From: Acididesulfobacillus acetoxydans
Lineage (GTDB): Bacteria > Bacillota > Desulfitobacteriia > Desulfitobacteriales > Desulfitobacteriaceae
Assembly (NCBI RefSeq): GCF_902729405.1
Contig: NZ_LR746496.1
Coordinates: 4,154,001 to 4,218,000, forward strand
Direction: 5' to 3'
Length of the DNA stretch: 64,000 bases
Positions 15,109-32,064 of this stretch are shown here, one piece after another (the stretch's first letter is position 1; each line of letters starts with the position of its first letter). Under the pieces are notes generated by a model. That model did not search any database and had not been told where the DNA came from. It worked only from the letters and a program-made list of their open reading frames with translations. Made by a program: the position numbers and the translations under genes.

Positions 15109-15116
15109 GTCTGTGC

Positions 15117-16253: not shown

Positions 16254-16260
16254 GTACGAT

Positions 16261-17274
16261 TCACCAACCTCTCAGTTCTTCCTGAATATAATCAAGCGAT
16301 AAAAGTAGCTCCTTAATGTCAGGGACGCCGAGACGCCAGGTGTTGTGAGAGTTGTATTCCTCACTGTGACTGACGTTTTCACTCCCGTCAAGAAAATATT
16401 TGTCATAGTTGAGATCCCTAGTATCCGCTGGAACACGGTAGTATTGACCCAAGTCTTCAGCATGGACCGCTTCCTCACGGGTCAGCAAGGTCTCATAGAG
16501 TTTTTCGCCATGGCGGGTGCCAATGATCTTTATCTCATTCTCCGCATGAAAGACTTGCTTCAATGCTTCGGCCAGGTCCCCAATCGTTGAAGCGGGTGCT
16601 TTCTGAACAAACAAGTCCCCTTGTCTGGCGTTTGTGAAGGCAAAGAGTACCAATTCCACAGCTTCATCCAAGGACATGAGATACCTCGTCATCCTAGGAT
16701 CCGTCACGCCAAGAGGCTGTCCACTCTTGATCTGCTGGACAAAGAGCGGAATAACCGAGCCCCGAGAAGCCATGACGTTGCCATAGCGCGTCGCGCAAAT
16801 CGTGGTCACGGCCGGGTCAATCGTGCGGGACTTGGCCACCGTGACCTTTTCCATCATGGCCTTCGAGATCCCCATGGCGTTGATGGGGTACACGGCCTTA
16901 TCCGTAGAGAGACAGATCACTTTCTTGACCCGATTGTGGACAGCCGCACTCAGTACGTTCTCTGTCCCCAGGATGTTGGTCTTCACCGCTTCCAACGGAA
17001 AAAACTCACAAGAGGGAACCTGTTTCAGAGCCGCGGCATGGAATACGTAGTCCGCCCCAATCATGGCGGTCGACACACTTTGGTAATCGCGGACATCGCC
17101 GATATGCCAGCTGATCTTACCGCTTGCGAACTTCTTGCGCAGGTCATCCTGTTTCTTTTCGTCCCGGGAAAAAATCCGTATCTCGCGGATGTCAGTTTCC
17201 AGAAATCGACTCAGTACTGCACAGCCAAAGGATCCGGTGCCTCCTGTGATCAACAGCGTTTTATCCTTGAACAT
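16261..17274 (-). CDS. capE: UDP-GlcNAc 4,6-dehydratase (inverting), CapE
   Basis: First enzyme of UDP-L-FucNAc synthesis. It removes water from UDP-GlcNAc and inverts C5. The 337-residue SDR protein opens LLITGGTGSFGCAV (NAD loop), has FHAAALKQVPSCEFFPLEAV, LSTDKAVYPINAMGISKAMM with the T-D-K and M-x-x-S-K catalytic set in place of the classical Y-x-x-x-K, and GTRHGEKLYETLL near the C-terminus. These are diagnostic of the PF02719 family in the short, soluble form. Its start overlaps the end of the upstream glycosyltransferase gene by 14 nt. With capF and capG it forms a three-step cassette. Confidence 0.93.
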   Translation of the reverse strand: MFKDKTLLITGGTGSFGCAVLSRFLETDIREIRIFSRDEKKQDDLRKKFASGKISWHIGDVRDYQSVSTAMIGADYVFHAAALKQVPSCEFFPLEAVKTNILGTENVLSAAVHNRVKKVICLSTDKAVYPINAMGISKAMMEKVTVAKSRTIDPAVTTICATRYGNVMASRGSVIPLFVQQIKSGQPLGVTDPRMTRYLMSLDEAVELVLFAFTNARQGDLFVQKAPASTIGDLAEALKQVFHAENEIKIIGTRHGEKLYETLLTREEAVHAEDLGQYYRVPADTRDLNYDKYFLDGSENVSHSEEYNSHNTWRLGVPDIKELLLSLDYIQEELRGW

Positions 17275-18493
17275 TTGTTTTGGCCACCTCCCCGATGTGG
17301 TTGACGATGATGTCGCAGCACTTTGAGACGTGATAGTTTTGCTCCAAGTACTCTCTCGCCTTCTTTCCCATGCACTCTCTCAGTTGACCATCGCTGGAAA
17401 ATAGATCGAGATTTTTGTTGAACGCGATCAGATCACCGCTCTTGCTCCACAGGCCGAACTTTCCTTTCGCCATGACTTCTCCAAGATCTGAAGAGGTATC
17501 GGTCGCTGCGATGATAGGCAGGGAGAGCTCCATGTAGTTAAGCAGACGCGAAGGAAAATTCGGTACGGTAAATCTCCTGTCTAAGAAGATCATGCCTACA
17601 TCACAAGCACTTAACAGCGCATTGTAATCATCCCTGGGCACAAAAGGCCGTAAAGACACATTCCGATAACCGGTCTTATCAATATGGTTCTTCAACGAGC
17701 CGTACTCCGTACCTGAACCAACTAATAAGAAGTATAGCCCCTCCCGGTCTTTATGGGACTCAAGCACCTGCATAAGAAAGTCGATCCCCTGCGGCTTGCC
17801 AAAGTTTCCACCATAGACAAAAACGACAGCGTCCTGAGGTATCCCGTAAAGTTCCCTGGTGAGTTTCTTTCCGGACCCTGATTTCTCCGCAGCCGCCGGT
17901 CTAATGCTATTCGGACAGAGTTCCACAACCTTGGGCTTCTCAAATCTATTATGGGTCACGACATACTTTACGTTGGCCCCGGACATACATCCTATGCGAT
18001 CTGACACATGGTACAGCCTCTTTTCCTTGGCTCGAAAGTACCTATGGACCACTCCACCGTCTTTCATCAAACCAATATCCACAGCGTTCTGAGGAAAGAT
18101 ATCCTTGAGCATGAGATAGGAAAGGGCTTGATCGCGTTTCTTAACATAGCGTATGACCTCCTCAAAAGTCACAGGGGGAGTGGAGTAGAGTACCAGATCG
18201 AAACGAACGTTTCTAAAATACCCACGAATCGCCGCCATGAACTGACGCTCGATGAGAAGCGTAGCCATCCCCTTTTCAATCAGGTGGGTCTTTTGCAGAT
18301 TCCACGTTCTGACCCTCAAGACATGAAGGCCACCCTCCATCCGTAGTTCCGTTCGTTTACCCTGCCTTCTTTCCCTCGCGGTAACCACATATACCTCATT
18401 GCCCCTGTCCTTTAATTCCTGGACCATGTCTGTGTATAGATTCCTATCTGCAATTGTTTCCGGGAACGCGATGGTCAGAAAGAGAATGTTCAT
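17261..18493 (-). CDS. Family 4 glycosyltransferase, WbjE/WbuB-like
   Basis: A 410-residue GT-B enzyme beginning MNILFLTIAFPETIADRNLY, with a long acceptor domain (VVTARERRQGKRTELRMEGG, LVLYSTPPVTFEEVIRY, MLKDIFPQNAVDIGLM) typical of the WbuB/WbjE group often found beside capEFG-type genes and thought to transfer N-acetyl-L-fucosamine. The donor domain has FVYGGNFGKPQGIDFLM and NFPSRLLNYMELSLPIIA. It is the gene directly upstream of capE and overlaps it by 14 nt, so FucNAc transfer is a reasonable inference, not a demonstration. Confidence 0.85.
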   Translation of the reverse strand: MNILFLTIAFPETIADRNLYTDMVQELKDRGNEVYVVTARERRQGKRTELRMEGGLHVLRVRTWNLQKTHLIEKGMATLLIERQFMAAIRGYFRNVRFDLVLYSTPPVTFEEVIRYVKKRDQALSYLMLKDIFPQNAVDIGLMKDGGVVHRYFRAKEKRLYHVSDRIGCMSGANVKYVVTHNRFEKPKVVELCPNSIRPAAAEKSGSGKKLTRELYGIPQDAVVFVYGGNFGKPQGIDFLMQVLESHKDREGLYFLLVGSGTEYGSLKNHIDKTGYRNVSLRPFVPRDDYNALLSACDVGMIFLDRRFTVPNFPSRLLNYMELSLPIIAATDTSSDLGEVMAKGKFGLWSKSGDLIAFNKNLDLFSSDGQLRECMGKKAREYLEQNYHVSKCCDIIVNHIGEVAKTNVQG

Positions 18494-18556
18494 TTAGCTC
18501 ACCTGCAACTTTTTGTTCCGTACGACGCACTATGACGAGGTCTTTGAGCACGGAAC

Positions 18557-19240
18557 TTAGTCTACCATTTCGAATTTAACAGAGGTCTTGATTACCTTGG
18601 CAGGAATCCCCACGGCAACGGTATTGGCTTCAACATCCCTATTTACCACCGCCCCAGCCCCAACGGTAGCTCCGCTGCCAATTCTTAGCCCTTGGATAAC
18701 TGAGCTGTTGGTCCCAAGATCACATCCAGGTCCTACACGCACATTACCGCTGACATTTACCCCTGGGGCAATGGTCGAGTAATCCCCAATGACCACGTCG
18801 TGCCCGATTGTGCTGTTCAGATTGATGTGAACGTGATTTCCCACTTTAACTTGAGTGGTAAGGATGGACCCTGCGCATACTATTGACCCCTCACCGATCT
18901 CCACGTATTTGGACATTTTTACAGAAGGGTGTATTACAGTCGCGAATTTTACACCTATGCCCATTAACTCTCGCACTACGAAATACCTTGTTCTGGGATT
19001 TCCGATGGCACATACTGCATAAGCGTCTCTATTGGCTAGAAACCAATTATAAGAGCCAAGGATAGATTCACCACAGAGCCGACCATCCTTCTCTGCAGCC
19101 TCGTTTGTTACAAATCCAGCTATCGTATACAACGGTTGGCCAGTTTTCTCAGTAGCGTACTCATTGCATTCCCTAATTAGCCAAAGAACCTCTTTGCCAA
19201 AACCACCGGCCCCAACAATCGTTATTTTCCTTGTGTTCAT
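18557..19240 (-). CDS. pglD: Sugar O/N-acyltransferase, PglD/NeuD-like
   Basis: It acetylates the 4-amino group of UDP-4-amino-4,6-dideoxy-GlcNAc with acetyl-CoA to give UDP-di-N-acetylbacillosamine, if the pathway reading is right. Of 227 residues, the N-terminal third is a Rossmann-like sugar-binding domain (KITIVGAGGFGKEVLWL) and the rest a left-handed beta-helix of hexapeptide repeats (IGEGSIVCAGSILT, VHINLNSTIGHDVVIGD). The catalytic His is probably in STIGHDVVIG. I chose ATG 19238-19240, placed 6 nt after AGAGGTGG. It lies next to the PglC-type transferase and the pglF and pglE genes. Confidence 0.85.
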   Translation of the reverse strand: MNTRKITIVGAGGFGKEVLWLIRECNEYATEKTGQPLYTIAGFVTNEAAEKDGRLCGESILGSYNWFLANRDAYAVCAIGNPRTRYFVVRELMGIGVKFATVIHPSVKMSKYVEIGEGSIVCAGSILTTQVKVGNHVHINLNSTIGHDVVIGDYSTIAPGVNVSGNVRVGPGCDLGTNSSVIQGLRIGSGATVGAGAVVNRDVEANTVAVGIPAKVIKTSVKFEMVD

Positions 19241-19292
19241 CAAAGCCACCTCTAGCCGTTAAGCTAGCTCCTTACCACGGTTCTTTCACATC

Positions 19293-19919
19293 TTAAACCC
19301 TAAATGTCCTTTCCTCGGCTACTGTGAACTCTTCCATCGTCACACCCTCAGCCTGATTGACCCCCCGCCGCATAACCACAATCGCCAGAGTCCTCAAGAA
19401 AATCATTAAATCCACCCTAAGCGAAACATGCTCCACGTACCAAAGGTCATACTCGAATCGCGTCTCCCAATCCACCCCATTGCGCCCGTTCACCTGTGCC
19501 CATCCCGATATCCCCGGGGTCACCTCGTGCCGCCGCATCTGCTCCGGTGTGTAAAGCGGCAGGTACTGTACGAGCAGAGGGCGCGGCCCGATGAAGCTCA
19601 TCTCCCCCTTGAGGATGTTGAAAAGCTGTGGCAGCTCATCCACGCTGAGCTTCCGTAAAATCTTGCCGATACGGGTCATCCGCTCCATGTCCGAAAGGGG
19701 CTCTCCGTCTTTCTCTGTCTCAACCCGCATCGTCCGAAACTTACAAATCGTGAAGATGACTCCCATTCGACCGGGCCGCTCCTGTTTAAAGAGCACGGGT
19801 CCTTTAGACTCTAGCTTGATGACGATGGCGGCACCCAGCATGATGAGAGATGTCACGATCAAGAGGACAAACGCGAAAATTACATCCAAAACCCGCTTAA
19901 TCCAAAGATACGATACCAT
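19293..19919 (-). CDS. pglC: Initiating phosphoglycosyltransferase, PglC-type (208 aa)
   Basis: Monotopic membrane enzyme that moves the first sugar phosphate onto undecaprenyl phosphate and so starts each repeat unit. One N-terminal hydrophobic re-entrant segment (VIFAFVLLIVTSLIMLGAAI) is followed by the cytosolic catalytic core: GPVLFKQERPGRMG, FTICKFRTMRVE, the Asp-Glu pair in SVDELPQLFN, GEMSFIGPRPLL and TPGISGWAQVNGRNG. It has only the minimal catalytic domain, as in PglC, without the four-helix and Rossmann extension of WbaP. That extension is found as a separate gene at 23019-23711. Bacillosamine phosphate is the probable substrate given the neighbours. Confidence 0.92.
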   Translation of the reverse strand: MVSYLWIKRVLDVIFAFVLLIVTSLIMLGAAIVIKLESKGPVLFKQERPGRMGVIFTICKFRTMRVETEKDGEPLSDMERMTRIGKILRKLSVDELPQLFNILKGEMSFIGPRPLLVQYLPLYTPEQMRRHEVTPGISGWAQVNGRNGVDWETRFEYDLWYVEHVSLRVDLMIFLRTLAIVVMRRGVNQAEGVTMEEFTVAEERTFRV

Positions 19920-19990
19920 ACTCTATTCCCACCCTTAAAACTTCTAAGGCTCCCCTGACCGGCTGGAAATTGTGAGCTTTCATCCTCTCC

Positions 19991-21847
19991 TCAACCCGTC
20001 AGCAGATTGACCACCTCTGCCTGCCGCTCTGACATTGACGGTATGACCGTCCCTAAGAGGGTTGTCACCTCACTGCGCTTCAGATAACTTCCTCTGGCCT
20101 CGATCGTCGTCAGCAGTTTCTTAAGCTGCCGGCTGTCAATGGCGACAGGCTTTGCCACAAATATGCGCTCGTGCGCAGTGGATCGCGTGCCTTCCGCTTG
20201 TGTCAGAAGCTCCTCCACCAGTTTCTCTCCCGGTCGGACTCCCGTAACGACAATTGGAATGTCCACTTCAGGCTCAAACCCCGACAAGCGAATCAGTTCC
20301 TTCGCCAAGTCCAGGATTTTCACAGGGCTCCCCATATCCAGGATGAAAATCTCCCCGCCCTCGGCCATGGCACCGGCTTGAAGAACGAGCTGCGATGCCT
20401 CCGGTATCGTCATAAAATACCGGGTCATGTCCGGATGAGTAATGGTCACAGGCCCCCCCTTCTCAATCTGTCTCTTGAAGGTGGGAATGACACTCCCACG
20501 GCTGCCGAGAACATTCCCGAAACGAACGGCCACAAACCGGGTTGAGGAGATCTTGTCCATGTCCTGGATGATCATCTCGGCCACCCGTTTGGAGGCCCCC
20601 ATGATACTCGTGGGGTTCACAGCCTTGTCCGTCGAAATGAGAACGAACGTCTTAACCCCTACCACATCAGCGGCTTCGGCCAAAATGCTGGTGCCCAGGA
20701 CATTGTTCTTCAGCGCTTCTTCCGGATTGTGCTCCATCAGAGGCACATGCTTGTGGGCTGCCGCGTGGAATACCACCCCTGGCTTATAACGTTGAAAAAC
20801 CAGCCTCACTTTGTCGGCATCTTTGATGTCCAAGATTTCAGTGAAAACATGGAGCCCGGGAAAATCCCCCTTGAGCTGCTGTTCTATCTCGAACACACTG
20901 TTTTCACCGCGTCCCACGATGATCAAGCTTTCAGGGTTCAGCCCGGCTACCTGGCGGCAGATCTCAGAACCGATTGAACCCCCGCCACCGGTAACCATTA
21001 CGCATTCTCCGGCCAAATAATCGGCCAACTTCTCAATATCGAGCTTGACCGGTGCCCTGCCGAGCAAATCCTCCACCTGAACCGGCCTTATCGCTCGGAT
21101 GTCGGCAGGACCGTTCAAAATATCATACACTCCGGGAAGAATCTTAACTTCCGCCGAGACATCTCTGCAGTGCTCGATGACTCCGCGGATGACACCGCTC
21201 GAAGCCGAAGGCATGGCGATGATGATCTCATCAACGCTGTGATGTTTGACCAACCGGGGAATGTCGCTGAGAGTCCCCAGCACCTTCACCCCAATAATGT
21301 GCATCCGCTGTTTCTGCGGAGCGTCATCCACGAAGCCCACGGGGCGGCCTTCTCTGTAATTTCTGTTCTTGAGCTCCCGTATGATCGTCACCCCCGCGTC
21401 CCCCGCACCGACTATCAGTATTCTTTTTTGACTTTCCGGTGTCTCCGCCAGCAGACCCGCCTCCCGTACGACCCGTCCCAGCATGCGGGAACCGCCGACT
21501 AAGAACAAGACCGTAAACCAGAGCAGGGCGGCAACTGTGTTGGCAAAGCGCATGGGTGCCGTAAAGTAAATAACCGCTACGGTACCGGCTGTGCCGACCG
21601 TAACCGCAAAAACCACGGATAGAAGTTCTCCGGTACTGGCATATTTCCAAAGCCTATTATAAAGACCAAAAACCGCAAAGGAGATGAGATAAATGAGGGT
21701 ACTGACGAAGGTCGTAATGAGATAGGTGGTTCTGTACTCGGGCGGAATTGCTCCCTCAAAGCGCAGGAAATAACTGGCGAAATGCGCGAGGTTAATGAGC
21801 AAAGCATCCACGAGGAGCATCATAACCGTTCTACCCGTAATTCTCAT
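19991..21847 (-). CDS. pglF: UDP-GlcNAc 4,6-dehydratase, PglF/CapD-type (618 aa)
   Basis: Membrane-bound dehydratase that turns UDP-GlcNAc into UDP-4-keto-6-deoxy-GlcNAc. Four N-terminal transmembrane helices (to about residue 115) are followed by a Rossmann CoA-binding-like domain (ILIVGAGDAGVTIIRELKNR) and the catalytic SDR domain beginning VTGGGGSIGSEICRQ near residue 290, with FHAAAHKHVPLME, STDKAVNPTSIMGASKRVAE and GVRPGEKLVEELL. The full layout and length match Campylobacter PglF and its Gram-positive homologues. It lies 36 nt downstream of the aminotransferase gene and makes the substrate for that enzyme. Confidence 0.93.
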   Translation of the reverse strand: MRITGRTVMMLLVDALLINLAHFASYFLRFEGAIPPEYRTTYLITTFVSTLIYLISFAVFGLYNRLWKYASTGELLSVVFAVTVGTAGTVAVIYFTAPMRFANTVAALLWFTVLFLVGGSRMLGRVVREAGLLAETPESQKRILIVGAGDAGVTIIRELKNRNYREGRPVGFVDDAPQKQRMHIIGVKVLGTLSDIPRLVKHHSVDEIIIAMPSASSGVIRGVIEHCRDVSAEVKILPGVYDILNGPADIRAIRPVQVEDLLGRAPVKLDIEKLADYLAGECVMVTGGGGSIGSEICRQVAGLNPESLIIVGRGENSVFEIEQQLKGDFPGLHVFTEILDIKDADKVRLVFQRYKPGVVFHAAAHKHVPLMEHNPEEALKNNVLGTSILAEAADVVGVKTFVLISTDKAVNPTSIMGASKRVAEMIIQDMDKISSTRFVAVRFGNVLGSRGSVIPTFKRQIEKGGPVTITHPDMTRYFMTIPEASQLVLQAGAMAEGGEIFILDMGSPVKILDLAKELIRLSGFEPEVDIPIVVTGVRPGEKLVEELLTQAEGTRSTAHERIFVAKPVAIDSRQLKKLLTTIEARGSYLKRSEVTTLLGTVIPSMSERQAEVVNLLTG

Positions 21848-21883
21848 GTGGCAAGGCTCCCTTATTAAGTGTTTGCGACGCGA

Positions 21884-23041
21884 CTAACCCACATCTTCCC
21901 ACAACTTCTTAAAACGGGCCTCGGGATCGGCAATTGCGGCATATCGGGCAGCCCGTTTAATCTCGGTCACCACCGTATCGATCTGCTCCTCGGTGATCTT
22001 ATTGAAGAAAGGGATCGCCAAGGTGCCGCCGGCGACGCGTTCGGTCACCGGAAAATCTCCTTCCTTGTAACCGAACATGTCCGTATATAAGGGTTGCAAA
22101 TGAATGGCTGTGAAATAGGGCCGGCAGGCAACGCCTCTATCCAAAAGCATTTCGAGAACAAGACCTCTGTCAACCCAAGACTCAAAACGAATCACGAATA
22201 CGAACCAGCTCATTCTCACGTTTTCGTCGAGGGTAGGAAGAACAATTCCTTCCACATCCTTCAGCTTGTCGATATACAGATCCGCAACTTGCTGCCGTCG
22301 GGCAATGATCTCTTCAATACGCTCCAGCTGAGCTATTCCCAAGGCAGCACTGATGTCACTCATTCGGTAGTTGTAACCTAAGCGAATATGATGAAGCCAC
22401 TGGGTATCTATTCCGCGTCCTTGATTGCGAAGGCTGTAACACAGTTTGGCAATGTCTTCGCTGTTCGTAACGACGACTCCACCCTCACCGGTCGTTATTT
22501 GTTTGTTGGGATAAAAAGCTAGAACCCCCGCGTCCGACATGGAACCAGCCTTTCTGCCCTTCCACTCTGAGCCGATGGCTTCACAAGAGTCTTCAATGAC
22601 GGCCAAGCCGTGCTTAAGAGCGATTCGTCTCACTTCGTCCATGTTCACCGGTTGGCCGAAGACATGAACGGGGAGGATGGCTTTCGTCCGGTCTGTGATT
22701 TTCGCTTCAATCTGCGAGATATCCATGTTATAAGTCTTCTCATCAATATCGACAAAGACAGGCTTGGCACCTTCATAGAGCATGCAGTTGCTCGATGCCA
22801 CAAAACTAAAAGGCGTGGTAATGACTTCATCGCCGTCCTTAATGTCCAAGGCCCGGATCAGCATGTGCAATGCGCTGGTTCCGCTGTTGCAGGCTACGGC
22901 ATACTTCGTTCCCACATAAGTCGCGATGTTCTGTTCGAACGCTTTCAGTTTCGGTCCCAGCGCCAGGAGACCGGAATCCAAGACCTCCGAAACAGCTCGT
23001 TTTTCCCTGTCCGTTATATCAGGCCTTGCTAACGGAATCAT
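21884..23041 (-). CDS. pglE: PLP-dependent sugar aminotransferase, PglE/DegT-type
   Basis: It converts the 4-keto sugar nucleotide made by PglF to the 4-amino sugar, using glutamate and pyridoxal phosphate. The 385-residue DegT/DnrJ/EryC1-family protein shows CNSGTSALHMLIRALDI (phosphate binding), IEDSCEAIGS (Asp contacting the PLP ring), FYPNKQITTGEGGVV with the Schiff-base lysine in NKQ, and GYNYRMSDISAALG. Its start overlaps the previous gene by 23 nt. Together with pglF, pglD and pglC it completes a bacillosamine cassette. Confidence 0.92.
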   Translation of the reverse strand: MIPLARPDITDREKRAVSEVLDSGLLALGPKLKAFEQNIATYVGTKYAVACNSGTSALHMLIRALDIKDGDEVITTPFSFVASSNCMLYEGAKPVFVDIDEKTYNMDISQIEAKITDRTKAILPVHVFGQPVNMDEVRRIALKHGLAVIEDSCEAIGSEWKGRKAGSMSDAGVLAFYPNKQITTGEGGVVVTNSEDIAKLCYSLRNQGRGIDTQWLHHIRLGYNYRMSDISAALGIAQLERIEEIIARRQQVADLYIDKLKDVEGIVLPTLDENVRMSWFVFVIRFESWVDRGLVLEMLLDRGVACRPYFTAIHLQPLYTDMFGYKEGDFPVTERVAGGTLAIPFFNKITEEQIDTVVTEIKRAARYAAIADPEARFKKLWEDVG

Positions 23042-23711
23042 ACCAAAACCCCTTTCCCCGAATCGTTGCTATTTTCCAAGGATTAACGCTAGCCACCACT
23101 CTGTCATTTGGAATAACTCCGATAGAGCCCTGATGGAATGGCCTATCATTTGCGCTCTCCGCCACCCGCTTGTCGTCCACAAACCGGGTGTCCGAACTCT
23201 GCAGCAAAACTGCCAACACGTCCGGGACAATCAACATCTCTTTGTGTTCCCGGATACGGTAGTCTACCAGCCTGCCCTGCGCCGCCACACTTAAGCTGAC
23301 AGCCACGATGTCTACCTTCCCGCCCAGTTGTTCAATCTCGGTTTCGATTTCCCCGATCTCCTTTTCCCCCAAACCGTGAACCAGGCCAACCAGGGAAAAA
23401 CGACCGTTTGCATAGCTCAAAAACCTTTTTGCAACTTCCTTGGACTCCTCCGCGTCTTCGCCCACGACCAAGACGCTCCGGGTAAACTCATGTTTTCGGT
23501 ACAGAGGCCAAATGCCCGACCCGGTAAGAATGAGGGCTGTCATCTCCACAAGCGGTGTCAGCAGCGACACCGACAGGGAAACGGCAAAGCTCTGCGTAAG
23601 ATAAATAAGACCCATAGCCAAGAGATTTAAAAAAACAACGGAGAACAAGATTGAGTAAACGATTTGAAAAAAGGCCCTTGCCCCCAAAACGCCTTTTTGC
23701 TTTCTGCTCAA
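23019..23711 (-). CDS. Stand-alone regulatory half of a large phosphoglycosyltransferase (no catalytic domain)
   Basis: This 230-residue protein has two hydrophobic helices at the N-terminus (ARAFFQIVYSILFSVVFLNL and a second near residue 50), then a Rossmann-type domain (SVLVVGEDAEESKEVAKRFL, FSLVGLVHG, VDIVAVSLS, KEMLIVPDVLAVLL). This matches the N-terminal half of WbaP-type sugar transferases. The chain stops exactly where the catalytic block (KRxxDxxxA ... KFRTM) would begin, and the C-terminal 50 residues are non-descript. The start overlaps the epimerase stop (ATGA), and the end runs into pglE. The tight coupling argues that it is expressed rather than dead. It may act with PglC in trans. 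Confidence 0.65.
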   Translation of the reverse strand: MSRKQKGVLGARAFFQIVYSILFSVVFLNLLAMGLIYLTQSFAVSLSVSLLTPLVEMTALILTGSGIWPLYRKHEFTRSVLVVGEDAEESKEVAKRFLSYANGRFSLVGLVHGLGEKEIGEIETEIEQLGGKVDIVAVSLSVAAQGRLVDYRIREHKEMLIVPDVLAVLLQSSDTRFVDDKRVAESANDRPFHQGSIGVIPNDRVVASVNPWKIATIRGKGFWYDSVSKA

Positions 23712-24667
23712 AACACCTCTGACTCAGCCCCCTCCATTTCTTTCTCCATGCACATCCTCATATAATACTTTAGGGTCAACTCCAAGCCCTGATAGAGACT
23801 GAACTTAGGCTGCCATCCCAGCTCGAGGCGGGCTTTTTGATTGCTCAGGTAGCTGTCCCTGATGTCCCCCGGCCGCGCCGGCCCGTACAACGGCCTGGCA
23901 TACGATCCGCCGACTTCATTGATGGCCTCCAGTAAGCCCTTGACCGAGGTTGGCACAGACGTGCTGATATTAAAAATACCGTAGTCCCCTGCCCCCAGGG
24001 CCGCCAGATTGGCCTCGGCCAAGTCTTCCGCGTAGACGAAGTCCCGGGTCTGTTCTCCGTCACCGTAGATGACGATGGGGTCATCCCGAAGCAGGTGGTC
24101 GATAAAGACAGAGACTACCCCGCCTTCCCCCTGCGCGTCCTGGCGGGGACCGTAAGCGTTGGCGTACCTCAAGACCGTGTAGTTAAGCCCGTAGGAGTCG
24201 GCATACATCTTGATGTAGTGCTCAGGGGTGTGCTTGGAGATACCATAGGGGGAGAGCGGGTTCAGGCTGTGGTTCTCGTCGACAGGTAAATATTCGGGAT
24301 TGCCGTAGACCGCGGCTGAGGACGCGTAGATCATTTTCTTGACGCCAAAGTCCCGACAGCAGTTTAAGAGGTTCAAAGTGCCCATGATATTGACCCGCGC
24401 GTCTTTCAAGGGGTCACTCAACGAATTTTGGACGCTGATTTGAGCCGCGTGATGAATGAGGTAGTCTGGCCGCTCGGAAGCGAAGATTCTCTCCAGACGC
24501 TCGCCGTCGCCGATGTCACAGCGGTAAAAAACCGCTTTGCCATTGACATGTTCCATCAGCCCGGTCGAAAGATTGTCAACAATCGCCACGTGGCAGTCTT
24601 CAGCCACCAGCCTGTCCACAACATGGGAGCCGATAAACCCCGCTCCTCCGGTTACCAGGACTTTCAC
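23708..24667 (-). CDS. galE: NAD-dependent epimerase, GalE-like
   Basis: A 319-residue extended SDR enzyme, probably a UDP-hexose (or UDP-GlcNAc) 4-epimerase. VLVTGGAGFIGSHVVDRL is the NAD loop. IVDNLSTGLMEHVN follows, then YASSAAVYGNPEYLPVDE and YGISKHTPEHYIKMY with the catalytic Tyr-x-x-x-Lys, and RDFVYAEDLAEANLAAL. Several starts are possible. I prefer GTG 24665-24667, because the protein then begins MKVLVTGGAG, with GGGGTGGGG upstream. It is the first well-defined enzyme gene of the operon. Confidence 0.85.
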   Translation of the reverse strand: MKVLVTGGAGFIGSHVVDRLVAEDCHVAIVDNLSTGLMEHVNGKAVFYRCDIGDGERLERIFASERPDYLIHHAAQISVQNSLSDPLKDARVNIMGTLNLLNCCRDFGVKKMIYASSAAVYGNPEYLPVDENHSLNPLSPYGISKHTPEHYIKMYADSYGLNYTVLRYANAYGPRQDAQGEGGVVSVFIDHLLRDDPIVIYGDGEQTRDFVYAEDLAEANLAALGAGDYGIFNISTSVPTSVKGLLEAINEVGGSYARPLYGPARPGDIRDSYLSNQKARLELGWQPKFSLYQGLELTLKYYMRMCMEKEMEGAESEVF

Positions 24668-24769
24668 TCTTTGCCCCACCCCCAACGCTTTGGCATTACC
24701 CCTGGTCGCGTCCCTCGTTCTTTCTTTATCTTAACAGGGAGTTAAGACATAAAACTGGATCTCCGACCT

Positions 24770-25090
24770 CTAGGGCAGAACAAACGACGCGTCGAAAATT
24801 ACCATCTCCATGTGTCTCTGAATACAATACTCGGTGAGCTTACCCAGAGCGGCAACCCGCGCACTGACAACGATGATATCCACCGTCACGCCCAGTTGCT
24901 CGATCTCGGCGTCGATCTCCTCGATCCCTTTGAGCTTGATGCCGTAAACCAATCCCACCAGGGAAACGCGGTCGCCGGCGCGGCTCAGCAACCTTTTCGC
25001 CACGGTTATGGACTCCTCCGGGTCCTGACCGACGACAAGCGCTTTCCGTTTGAAATGATCCCTCTTGCGGGAAGACCAAATATTCGCCAA
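24770..25090 (-). CDS. Short orphan Rossmann-domain protein (106 aa)
   Basis: It starts at TTG 25088-25090 behind GGGGGGAT. The sequence (KALVVGQDPEESITVAKRLL, VSLVGLVYGIKLKG, EIDAEIEQLGVTVDIIVVSA, EYCIQRHMEMVIFD) is clearly a paralogue of the middle of the protein at 23019-23711. It lacks both the transmembrane helices and the rest of the domain. It is the first frame of the polysaccharide operon, 102 nt ahead of the epimerase. It may be a duplicated remnant or a small regulatory partner. Confidence 0.5.
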   Translation of the reverse strand: MANIWSSRKRDHFKRKALVVGQDPEESITVAKRLLSRAGDRVSLVGLVYGIKLKGIEEIDAEIEQLGVTVDIIVVSARVAALGKLTEYCIQRHMEMVIFDASFVLP

Positions 25091-25587
25091 TTTTTATCCC
25101 CCCGTTTTCTGCCATTATTCCGTTCCGGCCCCTATTTCCTGGTGGATCCCTGCGTAAGTATGTAGTAGTGGTATAAGTTTGTTATGGAGCGATGATCCAT
25201 CGGGATACTCGCCTCCGGGCAGGAAAAAAGCAGCCTCCTTGGCCGCAGACACCGCTTTCTCTGAGTTACGCCCCTTCTCGGACCGCTGCCAGGCAACGCC
25301 CTTTCGAAACTTATCCACTACTGTCCTGCTTTATCTACATCTACTTCAATTTCGGCATCTTTCGATATTTGCCCCACCGTTCTGCCGAGAATTTTGCACC
25401 GCGCCAGTCCCTGGGACTTTATAGAGCTCTCATTGGGACTTTGTTCCTACTGATAAGACTATTCGCCACCTCAAGGGAAAATCCTTCCTCCGAATCATAA
25501 AATTTACCTATTTTTTTGGAAGATTTTACTTTTCGCTTGGCTTCGCGTTTGATCCTCATTTGCAGCCAAAAACTGCAGCTAAAAACC
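25091..25587 (-). promoter_or_regulatory. Long leader region of the polysaccharide operon
   Basis: About 500 bp separate the terminator of the amidase gene from the first frame of the operon. Read on the minus strand it holds a GGAGG-containing stretch near 25490, a TGGCGAATA motif near 25465 that recurs at the start of the 24770-25090 gene, and an intrinsic terminator-like hairpin at 25224-25246. This layout suits transcription attenuation or antitermination of a 20-kb operon. No known riboswitch class was recognised, and the promoter was not located with certainty. A short frame ending at 25318-25320 without a good start is also present. Confidence 0.45.
25224..25246 (-). terminator. Intrinsic terminator-like hairpin inside the operon leader
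   Basis: On the minus strand, GCGGCC and GGCTGC pair across a 5-nt loop (one G-U pair) and are followed directly by six T (the A run at 25224-25229). It stands about 130 nt before the first gene of the polysaccharide operon, so it may be a conditional attenuator. Confidence 0.5.
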
Positions 25588-25613
25588 CTCCCCCGGGTAC
25601 CCACCCGGGGGAG
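25581..25613 (-). terminator. Intrinsic terminator after the amidase gene
   Basis: A strong GC stem (CTCCCCCGGGT / ACCCGGGGGAG) is followed on the minus strand by GGTTTTTAG. It lies about 30 nt downstream of the amidase stop and separates that gene from the polysaccharide operon. Confidence 0.8.
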
Positions 25614-25641
25614 TTCACAGAGTGGCTTGCCCTTACGTTTC

Positions 25642-26097
25642 TCAATCCTCTGCCAGCCTCTCCCGCAGTCCCTCTAAGAGCAGATCGGCGGGAAAATAGC
25701 GTCCCGGACATTCTGTAACTGCGCCCGGTACCTCCCTGTGCAGTTCCACGGCCTCGAGCGTCAAATGGTAGGCCCGCAGCAGGGCTTCGACTTTCTCCAG
25801 GAGGCCCCGCAACTGGGCATCCGGCACTTCCTCCTTGCTGAAATCCCCCACCAGGCAGATCCCTAGGCCGAGCAGATTGCGCTGAGAGGCACGGCAGTGG
25901 GCGCCGGGCCGGTTAAGGGGCCTCCCTTTCTCACAGGTTCCGTCAGGCAGGATGACAAAGTGGTAACCGATATCACTCCAGCCTTTCGTCAGATGCCACT
26001 CGCGGATGACGGCGGCGTTGACAGGAACGGCGCGGCCGCTGCGCCGCAGTACGGTCGGGCTGGCGGAATGATGAATGACGATTTTTTGCCAATCCAT
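25642..26097 (-). CDS. N-acetylmuramoyl-L-alanine amidase (PGRP/Amidase_2 fold)
   Basis: It cleaves the bond between N-acetylmuramate and L-alanine in peptidoglycan. The 151-residue protein is a single Amidase_2 domain. IVIHHSASPT supplies the first zinc His, YHFVILPDGTCEKGRP the active-site region, and ELHREVPGAVTECPGRYFP carries a later His and the Cys ligand. No signal peptide is visible, so it is either cytosolic, released by lysis, or phage-derived. ATG 26095-26097 starts it behind GGGGGAGAAGCAC. It lies just downstream of the small YvrJ gene. Confidence 0.88.
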   Translation of the reverse strand: MDWQKIVIHHSASPTVLRRSGRAVPVNAAVIREWHLTKGWSDIGYHFVILPDGTCEKGRPLNRPGAHCRASQRNLLGLGICLVGDFSKEEVPDAQLRGLLEKVEALLRAYHLTLEAVELHREVPGAVTECPGRYFPADLLLEGLRERLAED

Positions 26098-26193
26098 GTG
26101 CTTCTCCCCCTTATCTCATAGTTTATCGGGATAACAGAGGAGACCGAACGATGTTCTCACGTTCGGCCCAGAGTGGGTTTACCGGGGTTGGGC

Positions 26194-26358
26194 TCAGACC
26201 TTCTCCCTGCCCCTCACTTCCAGGACGGCAATCGCTTTGGCCAGTTCGGTGATACTTGTGGAAAGCTCGGTCAGCCTGCGTTCGATACGCACCAGAAGGT
26301 AGGCGCTGAGCGCAATGGGAAAACCGAAATTGCCGACTAGGTTCAGCAGATCCACCAT
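26194..26358 (-). CDS. YvrJ family small membrane protein (54 aa)
   Basis: Starts at ATG 26356-26358 behind GGAGGAAAAAGCC and ends at TGA 26194-26196. It reads MVDLLNLVGNFGFPIALSAY and then LLVRIERRLTELSTSITELA: one short membrane helix followed by an amphipathic helix. This is the YvrJ pattern. The genes upstream encode DUF2922 and DUF1659 proteins, and the three form a small cassette I have seen together in many Firmicutes. The function is unknown. Confidence 0.85.
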   Translation of the reverse strand: MVDLLNLVGNFGFPIALSAYLLVRIERRLTELSTSITELAKAIAVLEVRGREKV

Positions 26359-26468
26359 GGCTTTTTCCTCCCGTCTTGCGCCTGAAGGTTGGTAAGCATT
26401 GGGGGCAAGCCCCTCCCGGATATTCTATGCTCGTTGTCCCAGAATTGGCAGTAGGCCGGAACAGCGAG

Positions 26469-26504
26469 GCGGCGGCCCTGAGCTTTCCGCTCCCGGCCGC
26501 CGCC
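26469..26504. other. GC-rich hairpin between YvrJ and DUF2922 genes
   Basis: GGCGGCGGCC and GGCCGCCGCC are perfect arms around a 16-nt loop. There is no T-run, so it could be a processing site or a weak terminator. A second GC hairpin (GCCGGCG / CGCCGGC) follows at about 26532-26551. Confidence 0.4.
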
Positions 26505-26574
26505 CGGATCTTATACCCTTATCCCCCGTCCGGCCGGCGCTTGACCGCCGGCTGCGTCCTTTGGCCGGCCCCGA

Positions 26575-26817
26575 CTAGGCCGCCGGAGGATCAAAAAGGT
26601 CGTTGGTCGAAGTGTCGACGATTTTTATATCCTGCTTAGAGAGATAGTCCCCTCCCTGGCCGGTAAACAGGTTCTTCGCGATGATCTGGTCCATGACCGT
26701 CTCGATCTGAGCGGCGGTCAGGTCCGCTTTCGGATCGGGGAGGGTCAAGGTCACGGTCTTTCCCGTCGCGGTGTTAAAGGTCATGCGCAGAACTTTGCGT
26801 GTGGTGACAGGCATCAC
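26575..26817 (-). CDS. DUF2922 family protein (80 aa)
   Basis: Start ATG 26815-26817 follows GGAGGAATGAGTG. The protein reads MTFNTATGKTVTLTLPDPKA, then a helix ending MDQIIAKNLFTG and a strand DIKIVDTSTNDLF. This is the compact beta-helix-beta pattern of DUF2922 proteins. It sits 49 nt after the DUF1659 gene. The role is unknown. Confidence 0.87.
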   Translation of the reverse strand: MMPVTTRKVLRMTFNTATGKTVTLTLPDPKADLTAAQIETVMDQIIAKNLFTGQGGDYLSKQDIKIVDTSTNDLFDPPAA

Positions 26818-26866
26818 TCATTCCTCCTCATTCGCCGCTGAGCCGGCCGGGCTTTCCCGGCCCCGC

Positions 26867-27091
26867 TTAGGCTTGGGACAATTCAACCCGGTTGTCGCGC
26901 CGGACACTGATGACAGTGTGCTGCTGCAGACCGTAGAGGGCCTGGATCACGTCGTAGACATCTTGATCCGTGGCCGCGGTTTTGACATTGGGAATGCTCC
27001 GCTGGCGCAGGATCGGGCCGCCGCTGCTGTTGACCCCGATCTGATAGGTGACCACCACAACCGATCCCTGGGCATTGGCTGTCACTGGCAT
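26867..27091 (-). CDS. DUF1659 family protein (74 aa)
   Basis: Start ATG 27089-27091 follows GGAGGTTCCCAGC. The sequence MPVTANAQGSVVVVTYQIGV followed by SIPNVKTAATDQDVYDVIQAL fits the DUF1659 family, which resembles DUF2922 in size and beta-rich N-terminus. It is the first gene of the DUF1659-DUF2922-YvrJ-amidase group. The function is unknown. Confidence 0.87.
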   Translation of the reverse strand: MPVTANAQGSVVVVTYQIGVNSSGGPILRQRSIPNVKTAATDQDVYDVIQALYGLQQHTVISVRRDNRVELSQA

Positions 27092-27226
27092 GCTGGGAAC
27101 CTCCTTTCCATCCTCCCCGAGTCGTTAAACAGGAATTCGCGGCCGGCCTCTGGGCTTGTTCGTCGGGAACTCCCGTTCTGATCATAGTATACTCATTCGT
27201 CCAAGTTGTGTTCCTAGACCATGGCC

Positions 27227-28033
27227 TTAACGGGCGTTTTTGCCAAACCACCGGAACCAAGATTTTCTCCGGTTCTCGGAGGAGTCGCCCCTGAGGATGT
27301 CCTCCGTCAGGGAAGGCAGGTCCTGCCCCAGCAGGATTCGGCGGGGATAATCTTTCGTGACCGCCTGGAAACGCGCTTCCCCCACCAGGCTTTGCAGCTT
27401 GTCCAATTCATCCCGGTACGGATGCTGCCGCTGTGAGGGACTGTGGGCATCGCTGCCGAGGAGATGCACCAACCCGCTGCCCGCGAGTTCCTTCGCCCAG
27501 TCTTTGGCCTGGCGCCCGTAGTGGCCGCTGAGGCTGCGCAGATCGATTTGCAGAAGGACGCCAAGCTTTAACCATTGCCGTAGCCGCCCCGGGGCCTCCC
27601 CCAGTGCGGGATAGCGTTCCGGGTGGGCCAGGACCGGGGTGACTCCTGCCACTTTCAATTCGAAGAACACTTGCTCCGTATAGGGCGGTATCTCCCAGGC
27701 CGGGAGTTCCAGAAGGAGGTGCTTGCCTTTCCCGCCGACGCTGAGGAGCGAGCCCTCTTGCAGGTAGCCGGCCATAGCGGGAAAGATGTGGTTTTCCGCT
27801 CCCGGGAGGACATTGAGATCGATCCCTTCATGGCGCAAGGCTTGGTTCAAGTCTCCCACTCTCTCTTCGATCTCCCCCGGAGTCAGCATGACCCGTCCCT
27901 CCATGACGTGCGGGGTGGCCACCACCGTCGTGAAACCCGCCTCCCGGAGCTGCCGCGCGATGCCCAAACCTTCTTCCAGGCTCTCCGCCCCGTCGTCGAG
28001 ACCGGGCAGGAGATGACAATGAAAATCAATCAT
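27227..28033 (-). CDS. cpsB: PHP-type protein-tyrosine phosphatase CpsB/YwqE
   Basis: It dephosphorylates the tyrosine kinase CpsD and so controls capsule or exopolysaccharide output. The start ATG 28031-28033 (MIDFHCHLLPGLDDGAESLE) has AAGGGGAG upstream. The metal-binding PHP motifs are visible: HCH near the N-terminus, VVATPHVMEG, GAENHIF, LAHPERYP and LLGSDAHSPSQR. A basic tail ends WFRWFGKNAR. The 268-residue length is normal for the family. It lies downstream of the Rpn gene and about 4 kb from cpsD and wzz, so the usual wzz-cpsD-cpsB order is interrupted by a surface protein and a nuclease gene. Confidence 0.9.
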   Translation of the reverse strand: MIDFHCHLLPGLDDGAESLEEGLGIARQLREAGFTTVVATPHVMEGRVMLTPGEIEERVGDLNQALRHEGIDLNVLPGAENHIFPAMAGYLQEGSLLSVGGKGKHLLLELPAWEIPPYTEQVFFELKVAGVTPVLAHPERYPALGEAPGRLRQWLKLGVLLQIDLRSLSGHYGRQAKDWAKELAGSGLVHLLGSDAHSPSQRQHPYRDELDKLQSLVGEARFQAVTKDYPRRILLGQDLPSLTEDILRGDSSENRRKSWFRWFGKNAR

Positions 28034-28059
28034 GAGAATGCTCCCCTTAACCTTCAGCT

Positions 28060-28947
28060 TCACCGTTCTGCTTGGAGTTTCCGCACCGTTTCCCGAGACA
28101 GGCCTGTAATCTCAGCAATGTCTTCTAATGAAAATCCCCTCTTCAGGGCATTTCTGGCCGTTTCCAGCTTTCCTTTTAGTTCACCTTCTTCTCTTCCTTC
28201 TTCTCTTGCAGTATCTAGGATTCCTAATTCCTGCCCTAGGTAGGCCAGATAATCGTCATATCCCCGCCGTTCTTCCTCGCTCATCATGAGATAATCCAGC
28301 TTCTTGGCCGCCAGGAGGATGCCCGGCGACTTAAAGTCCTCACGGATGGCGCCATGCTTAAAGAAATACACCCATTCGTCAAGATCCTCCCGGACCATGT
28401 CTTCAAACTTTTCCACATAGATCATGTAGTATTCGGGAAAGACATTTTTGCTGGTAACCACCGTGGATCTCTCGCGTTTGGCTGTGGATTCGTGAAGAAT
28501 AAGCGGTTTCTTGGTGTGCAGTCCAATCAGCTCTGTTGTGCCATAATAGATGAAGTCTGTATTTTCTTTTTCATCCACTCGCAGCGTATGATACAGGATA
28601 CTGATGGAGATCACCTTCACAACTTCGCTGTAGCTCTTCCCTAGCTCCAGACCTTCCACAACGGCTCTCGACGTACCCCAAAGCAGACGTTGCAGGTAAT
28701 CCGCCTCCCGTTGATTCTGTATTTCGATGATGATTTGTCTTCCTTGGGAGTCTCGGCACTTCAAGTCAACCCGGTTAAATTTGCGATTTTCAGCTTCCCT
28801 GTTGCTTTCGCTTTCTAAAATACTATCGATAACGATCGTTTCCTTTAGCAAGTTGGAAATAAAGGCTTCCAGTACGTCAAAATTGGCCTTATTCCGCAGT
28901 ATATATTTCATAGCCCAGTCGAAGCGCACCAGCTTTTTTACAGCCAT
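28060..28947 (-). CDS. Rpn family recombination-promoting nuclease/putative transposase
   Basis: A 295-residue PD-(D/E)xK protein. MAVKKLVRFDWAMKYILRNK and NFDVLEAFISNLLKE form the N-terminal helix set. NRVDLKCRDSQGRQIIIEIQ contains the catalytic D ... E-x-Q pattern. A C-terminal basic helix-turn-helix-like segment (GFSLEDIAEITGLSRETVRK) is typical of the clostridial branch. Rpn proteins are annotated as transposases, but in E. coli RpnA is a nuclease that promotes RecA-independent recombination. It separates cpsB from the rest of the regulatory genes and is probably a later arrival. Confidence 0.9.
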   Translation of the reverse strand: MAVKKLVRFDWAMKYILRNKANFDVLEAFISNLLKETIVIDSILESESNREAENRKFNRVDLKCRDSQGRQIIIEIQNQREADYLQRLLWGTSRAVVEGLELGKSYSEVVKVISISILYHTLRVDEKENTDFIYYGTTELIGLHTKKPLILHESTAKRERSTVVTSKNVFPEYYMIYVEKFEDMVREDLDEWVYFFKHGAIREDFKSPGILLAAKKLDYLMMSEEERRGYDDYLAYLGQELGILDTAREEGREEGELKGKLETARNALKRGFSLEDIAEITGLSRETVRKLQAER

Positions 28948-29106
28948 CCTTTTTTACTCCTTTCAAATACTAGGAAGCTGCGAAATTACAACATCGGACC
29001 CGCGGACAGTTTTGCTTCTCCACCTGTCTTTGCTATCCTTTTTTCTATCCTTATTGTACCATTTCGCGGGAACCGCGTCACCTTCTTCCGCTGCTCTCGC
29101 CGATCT

Positions 29107-29143
29107 CAAAAAACTCTCTCGCCGCAAAACACGGCGAGAGAGT
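29107..29143 (-). terminator. Intrinsic terminator after the CWB2 gene
   Basis: ACTCTCTCGCCG and CGGCGAGAGAGT form a perfect 12-bp stem around a 7-nt loop, followed on the minus strand by TTTTTTG. It ends the transcript of the surface-protein gene. Confidence 0.85.
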
Positions 29144-29242
29144 CAGTTCTGGTTTGGAACAAATCGCAAATTGAGTGTTGCCGCCGGGCGGGCGTCCGGG
29201 CATACACCGAGCCGGGATCCCCCGTCGATCGGCCCGGCGATC

Positions 29243-31939
29243 TTACTCGTAGGTGCTGAGGAATGTCACCGTATAGGTTGGTGACGTGCCGAAGCTAATG
29301 GATTTTCCCATCAGTTTGGACAGTGGGATCTGGTCGAAGACATAGCCCGCTTCTCCGCTCGCAATGGCAGCCTGGAGTTGCTCTGCCGTTAAGCCGGTTG
29401 AAGTATAGTTTACGCTCCCGAGGAGCATGGCGGAAACGACGTTGACAAAGTTGAAGGAACTGCCGCTGGTCAGATCGCCCAAGGTCTGACTCCCTTGGCC
29501 CGATTTTATGGCTACCTGGACCGTGTATGGCGCGGTCTTGGTGATGGTCATCCATTGATTGGAAAGCGTCGTCAGCGGGGTTGTTGTTGGCGTACCCAAG
29601 TTGATGGTCACCGTTTCCACTGAACTGTTATTATAGCCGCTCTCTGTCAGATAGCCCGTCAAGGTCACGGGTCCGCTGCCGAACACCATTCTCAGACCGC
29701 CAAGCGAGACTCCATTGTGATTCGTATCCAGGGCCCCCAGAAGAGTGGATGTGGATAGGGAGCCGCTGCTCAGTGCCGCAACGACCGGATTGGCCAGCCA
29801 GGACACACCCCGGGACTTCAGCGATGTCACGGTCAGGGATGGATTCGTACCGTTGCTCGCAATTTGCAGCCCGGTCAAGCGCACGCTGTCTGGAACCTTA
29901 CTCAGATCCAAGCTGACGGACGAAGTTCCGGAAGACGTTACATTGTCCGAGGGGGTACTCATCTGTGCCGTAACGGAGCTTACACCCAGAGTCGGAGTTA
30001 CAGGGACTCCCCCTCCGCCGCCTCCGCTGAATCCTCCGCCACCGCCTGCCGGAGGTACGACAGGTGGAGTGGTTCCACCCGCGGGCGGAGCGCTCGGGGT
30101 CGTCGAGGTAGCCTGTCCGTTGACGGTCCCGCCGCCGCTGACCAGAGTGCCGGTGCTGCCCTGATCAACCAGGCTGGCGATGCCGGCTGTGGGCGGAATC
30201 ACGATATTGGCCTGGGCTGTGGTGGTCATGGTGCTCACGACTGAGCCGGCCCCCAAGTTCACGTTGGCCTGGGCTGTCACATTGACTGCCGTAAAGTTTC
30301 CGGACAAGCCTACCTGAGTTCCGGGCGTGAGCGGCGCGATATTGAGCTGGGCAATGCTCGCACCCGGCGCCGCCACGATGTTGGCCGCTCCTTCCACGAT
30401 CACCGGTTGAGTAAAGGTACCGTGAAATACCACCGTGCCGCCGGGCGTCAGGGGCCGAATCACAATCACGGAACCGAAACTGCCGGCGGAAGAGGCATCC
30501 AGGATACCGGGGGCGGACACATAAGTGGTGGTTAGGGACGTGTTGCCCGAGGTCAGGATGTGCACGTCGCTCGAACTGTCCAGCGTCAAGCTGTCAGCCG
30601 TGACGCCGTTCAGGTGGATGCTGTTCGAGCCCCCGGAGAGGACCACGATTCCGGCAGCCTTGACGTTATTGAGTGTGGCGGCACCGTCGGCCCCGGGATC
30701 AAGGAAGACCGTGCCTGTGACCTGAACATTGGTCAGGGTGGAGTTATTGCCGGACACATAAATAGCGTAAGGCGCGACGACGTTCTGCAGAGTGACACTG
30801 TCGGCAGTGATGAGCACGCGATCGGTCAGGGTACTTTTGTTGGCCGGGTCGCTCGAACCCTCCGTGGCTCCCGCGGTCGTGTACGCTGTGGCCGAGGTCA
30901 GGGCGCTGAGCGCGGAGTCCGCAATGACGCTGTCCCCGCCCAGGGCGATTACGCTGCGGGGGAGAAGCGAGGCTTTGGCAAAAGCGAGACTTTCGGCCGG
31001 GAGTTGGGTATCGCTCAGGATGACGGGCGATCCCGTCAGGGCCGCCATGGGCGCGGCCGTAAGCGCGTCGACCAAGTGAGCGTCTTCCCCGTTGGCCACA
31101 TAAACTGTGCCGTAATTGAGTTCCGGAGCGAAAGCTTTGATGACCAGGCGGTTAGTGTCAAAGCGATCCACCCCTCCTAGCCGCGCGGCACCGGGCAGCA
31201 AGGCTTTGACCGCGGAACTTACAACCCCGGTTCCGCCGATGACATAAGTGCTTTTCAGGCTGGGCTTCAGACTATCGAGATAAGAAGCCGTGGCAGCCGG
31301 CAGGCTGTTGACGTCCGTGAGCAGGATCGGCATCCCCTGCGCCGCCGCGATCGGGGCGACCGAGAGGGCGTCGGCGTTGCTGTAGGCCGTGGCGATCACC
31401 GCCCGGCTGACCTTCTCCAAGGATCCGAGCGTTTGGGCAATGTTGACGGCTGTGGCGAAGCGGTCGCTTCCGCCCAACGATTTTACCGCGATGCCCAGCG
31501 CGGCAATCTCATCCGTCACCGCCTTTTCGATGACCCCGGAGCCGCTGGTGACATAGACTGTCTTCACTTGCAGGCGTTTGAGCTCAGCCTGGGTGTAAGG
31601 ATTGAGGCTGTCCCCCTGCGTGAGCAGGATCGGGGCGTTGAGAGCTTTGGCCAAGGGGGCCGCCGTAAGCGCGTCGACCAGGTTTTGATCCATCCCCGCC
31701 GCCACAATGGCATATTGTGACGTCGTTTTCCACCCGGCTTCGGCGATCTTGGCCGCAGTTTCATAGCGGTCCTGACCGGCCAAACGCAAGGTCGTGGCAG
31801 GAGAAGTCACCGCTGCCACCGGAGTAGTCGGCGCCGAGACGCTCGCCGTATCCGCCAGGGCGGTCAAAGGCTGCAGGACTGTCAACGAACACGCCAGCGT
31901 GAACGTTAAGAGCCGGGTTAAGGATTTTCCCTTTTTCAT
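29243..31939 (-). CDS. Cell-surface protein with three CWB2 repeats (898 aa)
   Basis: Start ATG 31937-31939 (MKKGKSLTRLLTFTLACSLT) follows GGAGGATCTG. A cleavable signal peptide ends around ALADTASVSA. Three cell-wall-binding type 2 repeats follow between about residues 45 and 340: RLAGQDRYETAAKIAE, SLGGSDRFATAVNIAQ and RLGGVDRFDTNRLVI, each with a partner such as VDALTAAPLAKALNAPILLT. A Ser/Thr/Val-rich beta-helix-like region comes next, then a Pro/Gly linker (TTPPVVPPAGGGGG) and a C-terminal beta-rich domain. CWB2 repeats bind an anionic wall polymer in clostridial S-layer proteins. The Ser-rich middle may be an adhesin. It lies between the polysaccharide regulators. Confidence 0.92.
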   Translation of the reverse strand: MKKGKSLTRLLTFTLACSLTVLQPLTALADTASVSAPTTPVAAVTSPATTLRLAGQDRYETAAKIAEAGWKTTSQYAIVAAGMDQNLVDALTAAPLAKALNAPILLTQGDSLNPYTQAELKRLQVKTVYVTSGSGVIEKAVTDEIAALGIAVKSLGGSDRFATAVNIAQTLGSLEKVSRAVIATAYSNADALSVAPIAAAQGMPILLTDVNSLPAATASYLDSLKPSLKSTYVIGGTGVVSSAVKALLPGAARLGGVDRFDTNRLVIKAFAPELNYGTVYVANGEDAHLVDALTAAPMAALTGSPVILSDTQLPAESLAFAKASLLPRSVIALGGDSVIADSALSALTSATAYTTAGATEGSSDPANKSTLTDRVLITADSVTLQNVVAPYAIYVSGNNSTLTNVQVTGTVFLDPGADGAATLNNVKAAGIVVLSGGSNSIHLNGVTADSLTLDSSSDVHILTSGNTSLTTTYVSAPGILDASSAGSFGSVIVIRPLTPGGTVVFHGTFTQPVIVEGAANIVAAPGASIAQLNIAPLTPGTQVGLSGNFTAVNVTAQANVNLGAGSVVSTMTTTAQANIVIPPTAGIASLVDQGSTGTLVSGGGTVNGQATSTTPSAPPAGGTTPPVVPPAGGGGGFSGGGGGGVPVTPTLGVSSVTAQMSTPSDNVTSSGTSSVSLDLSKVPDSVRLTGLQIASNGTNPSLTVTSLKSRGVSWLANPVVAALSSGSLSTSTLLGALDTNHNGVSLGGLRMVFGSGPVTLTGYLTESGYNNSSVETVTINLGTPTTTPLTTLSNQWMTITKTAPYTVQVAIKSGQGSQTLGDLTSGSSFNFVNVVSAMLLGSVNYTSTGLTAEQLQAAIASGEAGYVFDQIPLSKLMGKSISFGTSPTYTVTFLSTYE

Positions 31940-32064
31940 AAAACAGATCCTCCTACTTTGCTTATTCTCGCTTTCATCCTCCTCAAGAGCTACCCTTGAT
32001 GAATCCAATCCCGTTCTTTGTTTCTCCTCCCTCCCTTTCTCCCTTCTTTTTTTACAGACCCGCC

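Follow-up and report, generated by a model that had tools for sequence, protein, structure and literature searches.

Organization of the operon

The window analysed here is a 64,000-nucleotide stretch of the Acididesulfobacillus acetoxydans genome, and all coordinates without a locus label refer to it. It contains a polysaccharide operon, the genes of which lie on the minus strand. Read in the direction of transcription, they encode Wzz (32922-33629), a tyrosine kinase (32065-32808), an S-layer-like protein (29243-32068), a PD-(D/E)XK transposase-like protein (28060-28947), CpsB (27227-28063), and an amidase (25642-26097). A short Rossmann-only reading frame (24770-25090) follows, then a galE-like UDP-sugar 4-epimerase gene (23708-24685; assigned with Pfam and NCBIfam) and the gene under study, termed the orphan (23019-23711). 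The next four genes form a bacillosamine cassette: a degT/EpsN/PglE-type aminotransferase (21884-23041; PF01041, E 5.9e-128; 75-80% identical to its cassette orthologues), a PglF/EpsC-type 4,6-dehydratase with four helices and a CoA_binding_3 domain of its own (19991-21847; PF02719, PF13727), a PglC/EpsL-type small phosphoglycosyl transferase (PGT) with a single PF02397 domain (19293-19919; E 2.1e-63), and a PglD/EpsM-type acetyltransferase (18557-19249; TIGR03570, E 2.6e-59, above the cut-off). A glycosyltransferase (17261-18493) and three nucleotide-sugar genes (13981-17274) lie downstream.

B. subtilis epsCLMN and C. jejuni pglFEDC likewise hold degT, pglF, pglC, and pglD in a single operon. 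The window cassette is preceded by the N-terminal half of a large PGT (Lg-PGT), unlike the cassette loci examined in relatives. The window species, a relative of Desulfosporosinus, was compared with one congener that carries the same operon, Peptococcaceae bacterium CEB3 (G001). The two operons are collinear, and in both species of the genus the transposase-like gene occupies the interval between the S-layer-like gene and cpsB.

An Rfam scan of positions 17000-30000 returned no family at threshold. The operon leader at 25430-25510 (GGAAGGATTTTCCC..GAGGTGGCGAATA), itself without an Rfam match, is ~80% conserved in CEB3, occurs once in the genome at up to three mismatches, and is possibly regulatory. 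Between the amidase gene and galE, the CEB3 leader contains imperfect tandem repeats with 18-bp and 23-bp units (L018:8553-8627 and L018:8939-9013).

The orphan corresponds to the front half of a large PGT

The 230-aa orphan product matches NCBIfam TIGR03025 over positions 56-246 of 445 (E 2.9e-8), and its CEB3 orthologue matches the same family over positions 2-242 (E 4e-17). Full-length transferases of 452-463 aa are 43% identical to the orphan across residues 15-181. Homology stops near residue 182, and a Pfam search, which returned no match of any kind, found no PF02397 catalytic domain. The gene at 23019-23711 is the N-terminal half of a WbaP/EPS_sugtrans-type Lg-PGT without its catalytic domain, as the sequence-only reading had proposed in describing such a half as a separate gene. 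Codons ~76-182 encode a Rossmann-like DUF and codons 183-230 an unrelated tail. That reading had also credited the half with its membrane helices, which holds for helices 3-4 and fails for helices 1-2, deleted in the window species. Among the defining features of an Lg-PGT, the window copy therefore has the DUF and lacks both PF02397 and the set of four N-terminal helices. In CEB3 the orphan product (290 aa) combines a complete set of four helices with the Rossmann domain and a matching 50-residue tail that enters degT by 23 bases; a good ribosome-binding sequence, GGAGG, precedes its TTG start at a distance of eight bases.

The orphan is invisible to Pfam alone and was detected through NCBIfam and comparative searches; PF13727 scores below threshold for it, and likewise for intact enzymes of the same subfamily. 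A PDB sequence search with a profile of the N-terminal half gave no significant match. Since AF2 gave a poor model from the window sequence by itself (pLDDT 49.5), the CEB3 orthologue was modelled with four relatives instead. The resulting model shows four helices and a Rossmann-like domain, with WbaP (8T53) as the sole significant Foldseek match (E 3e-4; VIA Z 13.0 over 200 residues); at a mean pLDDT of 60 and an rmsd of 8.5 Å (8.5-9.5 Å), its domain arrangement is unreliable.

WbaP, WcaJ, and EpsZ (TIGR03025) share with the orphan family the four-helix bundle and Rossmann-like DUF, the structural proximity to WbaP 8T53, and, in relatives, the position of the full gene next to galE; they differ in possessing PF02397 and, from the window copy, in helices 1-2. 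The N-terminal module of WbaP is also present in PglF-like dehydratases (PMC10942596). Dehydratases of the PglF/EpsC/CapD type thus resemble the orphan in their N-terminal helices and PF13727 module, but the orphan has no dehydratase domain, and its sequence lies nearer to the N-halves of Lg-PGTs.

The tail (23019-23165) overlaps the first 23 bases of degT. A homology search found no relatives of it outside the two species, and it is disordered in the CEB3 AF2 model. Its dN/dS between the window species and CEB3 is 0.57 (bootstrap 0.19-1.65), its GC3 is 0.47 (Rossmann part, 0.64), and third-position substitutions show no excess (8 of 24, compared with 34 of 53 in the Rossmann part; p = 0.015). 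These values are compatible with neutral drift. We also considered the tail as a remnant of the catalytic domain, since a few residues align in MAFFT, but rejected this as it has neither a profile match nor relatives.

The truncation is older than the split of the two species

In relatives, galE is the constant upstream neighbour of an Lg-PGT gene. It directly adjoins a full Lg-PGT in G006, G036, G045, G047, and G066; in G075 the two genes are also adjacent, but in reverse order. The enzyme encoded right after galE is 452-470 aa long (Desulfosporosinus acididurans M1, G006; a Peptococcaceae MAG, G066; and three more genomes). Upstream of the pair lie Wzz, a kinase, and in some genomes CpsB, matching the window; in D. 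acididurans the upstream genes (slp, Wzz, kinase, CpsB) are those of the window operon. The shared gene order and upstream genes argue that the orphan is the N-half of the operon's own Lg-PGT rather than a recruited domain, and its position after galE, where relatives have the complete enzyme, argues that it is the stump of a deleted enzyme distinct from PglC.

CEB3 shows the same truncation of the Lg-PGT gene, and a break common to both species implies that the truncation is older than their split. In CEB3 a 127-bp gap separates galE from the orphan, whereas in the window species the two genes overlap, because a 5' deletion took helices 1-2 together with the 127-bp spacer. The sequence-only reading had taken the overlaps with both flanking genes as a sign that the orphan is made. 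This argument falls away, since the galE overlap is a product of deletion and the degT overlap arises from the run-on tail; neither is proof of expression.

Two other relatives show different broken PGT states at the same operon position and represent parallel losses. In G021, the gene after galE encodes a protein of 283 aa in which the catalytic domain is intact but the helices and half of the DUF are gone (L065:9658-10509); in G019, a 124-aa broken PGT core, comprising the first part of the core, lies upstream of degT-pglC (L092:9354-9728). Across 82 genomes from the class, and leaving aside matches truncated at contig ends, a stand-alone N-half of the orphan type occurs in the two species only, so a single evolutionary event is represented, with no independent co-occurrence. 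Among the matches listed from 299 genomes of the phylum, no frame shorter than 400 aa carried PF13727, a profile insensitive to this subfamily. Searches of the genome contigs gave no match with the window protein alone and three loci with the alignment as query. In the literature we found no split or stand-alone Lg-PGT N-half, a weak negative given that subscription journals were only partly covered.

A second, shorter Rossmann copy

The sequence-only reading had noted a further Rossmann-only copy at 24770-25090, and this is borne out at 52-54% identity to the orphan. The copy has no membrane helices, shows no homology to the orphan past the Rossmann core, and ends at a TAG stop within the homologous region. 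Compared with G006 and G066, it has the insertions that also mark the orphan of the genus; together with the 54% identity, this marks it as a paralogue that either diverged before the species split or evolves fast. No counterpart is present in CEB3. With 44 non-synonymous and 27 synonymous unique changes, the copy falls between constraint and neutrality, and a purine-rich stretch precedes its TTG start. We regard it as most probably a remnant, though it might encode a small, soluble DUF protein.

Selection on the orphan

Between the window species and CEB3, the Rossmann part of the orphan has a dN/dS of 0.13 (bootstrap 0.06-0.24; dS about 0.6), comparable values being 0.12 for galE and 0.11 for pglC, and helices 3-4 have 0.27 (0.11-0.65); each is a pairwise average of two species, which could mask a loss of function that happened lately in the window species. 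With the second copy as outgroup, unique changes on the separate branches number 10 non-synonymous to 9 synonymous for the window species (p 0.03) and 8 to 9 for CEB3 (p 0.01), against a neutral expectation of 3:1. Both orphan branches thus depart from neutrality, although the test is small and indicative only.

Other comparisons hint weakly at relaxed selection along the window branch. P45, R46, R64, and R79, conserved in most or all outgroups, have been lost from the window copy. This copy also has more unique residues than the CEB3 copy with G006 as outgroup (13 and 5; p 0.10) and nearly the same number with G066 (8 and 7), a non-significant tendency towards faster change. In the window species, erosion of the module appears to be under way.

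These data bear on the foremost alternative, that both copies are decaying pseudogene pieces of a deleted WbaP-type gene, the low dN/dS stemming from the common ancestor or from the CEB3 lineage only. The loss of helices 1-2 and of conserved residues, the reduced, TAG-ended second copy, the neutral-looking tail, and the different broken PGT pieces at the same place in other relatives all fit this account. A pseudogene would be expected to show a dN/dS near 1 or a disrupted frame, but the frame is intact in both species, the Rossmann part stands at 0.13 even though the truncation predates the split, and the window branch is non-neutral by itself. The sequence-only reading had tied a remnant to absence or disruption of the orphan in close relatives with the same operon; in CEB3 the gene is present, with four helices and a constrained Rossmann part. 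As judged from the sequences, these observations argue that the orphan is not a simple pseudogene in the genus, and we consider the decaying-remnant account rather unlikely.

PglC and candidate partners of the orphan

PglC was said to be the only catalytic core, which is correct within the operon but not for the genome. The 4.52-Mb one-contig genome encodes three PF02397 proteins, namely PglC, a 236-aa protein (~285 kb), and a full 508-aa Lg-PGT (~234 kb), and among these three no recognisable catalytic partner half of the deleted Lg-PGT was found. PglC has a single PF02397 domain, its best PDB match is an N,N'-diacetylbacillosaminyl-1-phosphate transferase (8e37; E 5.6e-61), and its neighbours are of the EpsC/N/M type; EpsL transfers diNAcBac-1-P (PMC10653937). 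These sequence relationships place PglC among the small PGTs of the diacetylbacillosamine type. Its identity is 37% with the catalytic domain of the intact D. acididurans Lg-PGT but 72-75% with the small PGTs of degT-pglC cassettes in six relatives of the Desulfosporosinus family, and at those six loci neither galE nor an N-half adjoins the cassette. PglC came with the degT-pglF-pglC-pglD cassette and, as its orthologues' loci lack galE and the N-half, most likely never had an orphan-type N-half. The idea that orphan and PglC once formed a single enzyme is therefore rejected, and a loss of the domain from PglC is not supported. Searching operons for the pair, as had been suggested, recovers both genes in CEB3 but no adjoining N-half at the six cassettes. 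In G027, two separate degT-pglF-pglC cassettes are present (L089, G027:C1:5089000-5104000; L090, G027:C1:2356000-2370000), and the stretch examined around one of them has neither Wzz nor kinase genes.

The orphan could nonetheless act in trans on PglC, docking on the small PGT and supplying nucleotide feedback of the large-PGT type. The two genes share an operon and the DUF is constrained. In S. enterica WbaP, UMP, UDP, and UTP stabilise the DUF, and the enzyme is inhibited by UMP (PMC10942596). Control of an initiating PGT by a second protein is known from Myxococcus xanthus, where EpsW acts on the large PGT EpsZ (PMC12802240); EpsW, unlike the orphan, is a response regulator, and its target is a complete Lg-PGT. 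On the other side, the lost partner was not the bacillosamine-type PglC, its close orthologues sit in operons without an N-half, and no further stand-alone halves were seen in the class genomes. PglC, whose orthologues do without the module, is not strongly favoured as partner, and a trans regulator of PglC seems unlikely.

Similarly improbable is a partnership with PglF or the 508-aa Lg-PGT, in which mixed dimers would form via the DUF common to these proteins. PglF carries the same helices and PF13727 module, and most inter-chain contacts of the WbaP dimer lie in the DUF (PMC10942596). Profile E-values, however, place the orphan much nearer to the N-halves of Lg-PGTs from its subfamily than to those of PglF proteins, which leaves a common interface uncertain.

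Discussion

Taken together, we regard the orphan as what is left of a deleted Lg-PGT, probably a regulatory module that stands alone, is maintained by selection in one genus, and is now eroding in the window species. By homology and position, the operon's former Lg-PGT lay just after galE, with the orphan as its front half. In the ancestor of the genus, a degT-pglF-pglC-pglD cassette with its own small PGT may have landed in place of the catalytic domain. It would have replaced the distal part of the old operon and severed the Lg-PGT gene at about codon 240 of its ancestral frame. The broken gene would then have run on into the sequence upstream of degT, giving the tail. A four-helix protein with a Rossmann-like DUF was apparently retained, its Rossmann part under purifying selection after the truncation, judging from the two species. 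A second deletion in the window species removed helices 1-2 and the galE-orphan spacer.

If its topology is that of WbaP, helices 3-4 would still hold the DUF in the cytoplasm. There, the membrane-tethered DUF might dimerise, bind uridine nucleotides, and modulate a membrane enzyme of the pathway, with PglF, PglC, and the full-length Lg-PGT elsewhere in the genome as candidate partners. By the WbaP analogy, the freed regulatory half could serve as a trans-acting, nucleotide-sensing membrane subunit for PglC or PglF of the same operon, a proposal we offer tentatively.

Should the half persist alone under selection beside a PGT that never had it, the operon would provide a clean two-gene system for trans action, and such a case would bear on what the helices and DUF found in most large PGTs are for. 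Even if the orphan is no more than a stump, the locus illustrates the exchange of initiating enzymes in polysaccharide operons and the traces that it leaves.
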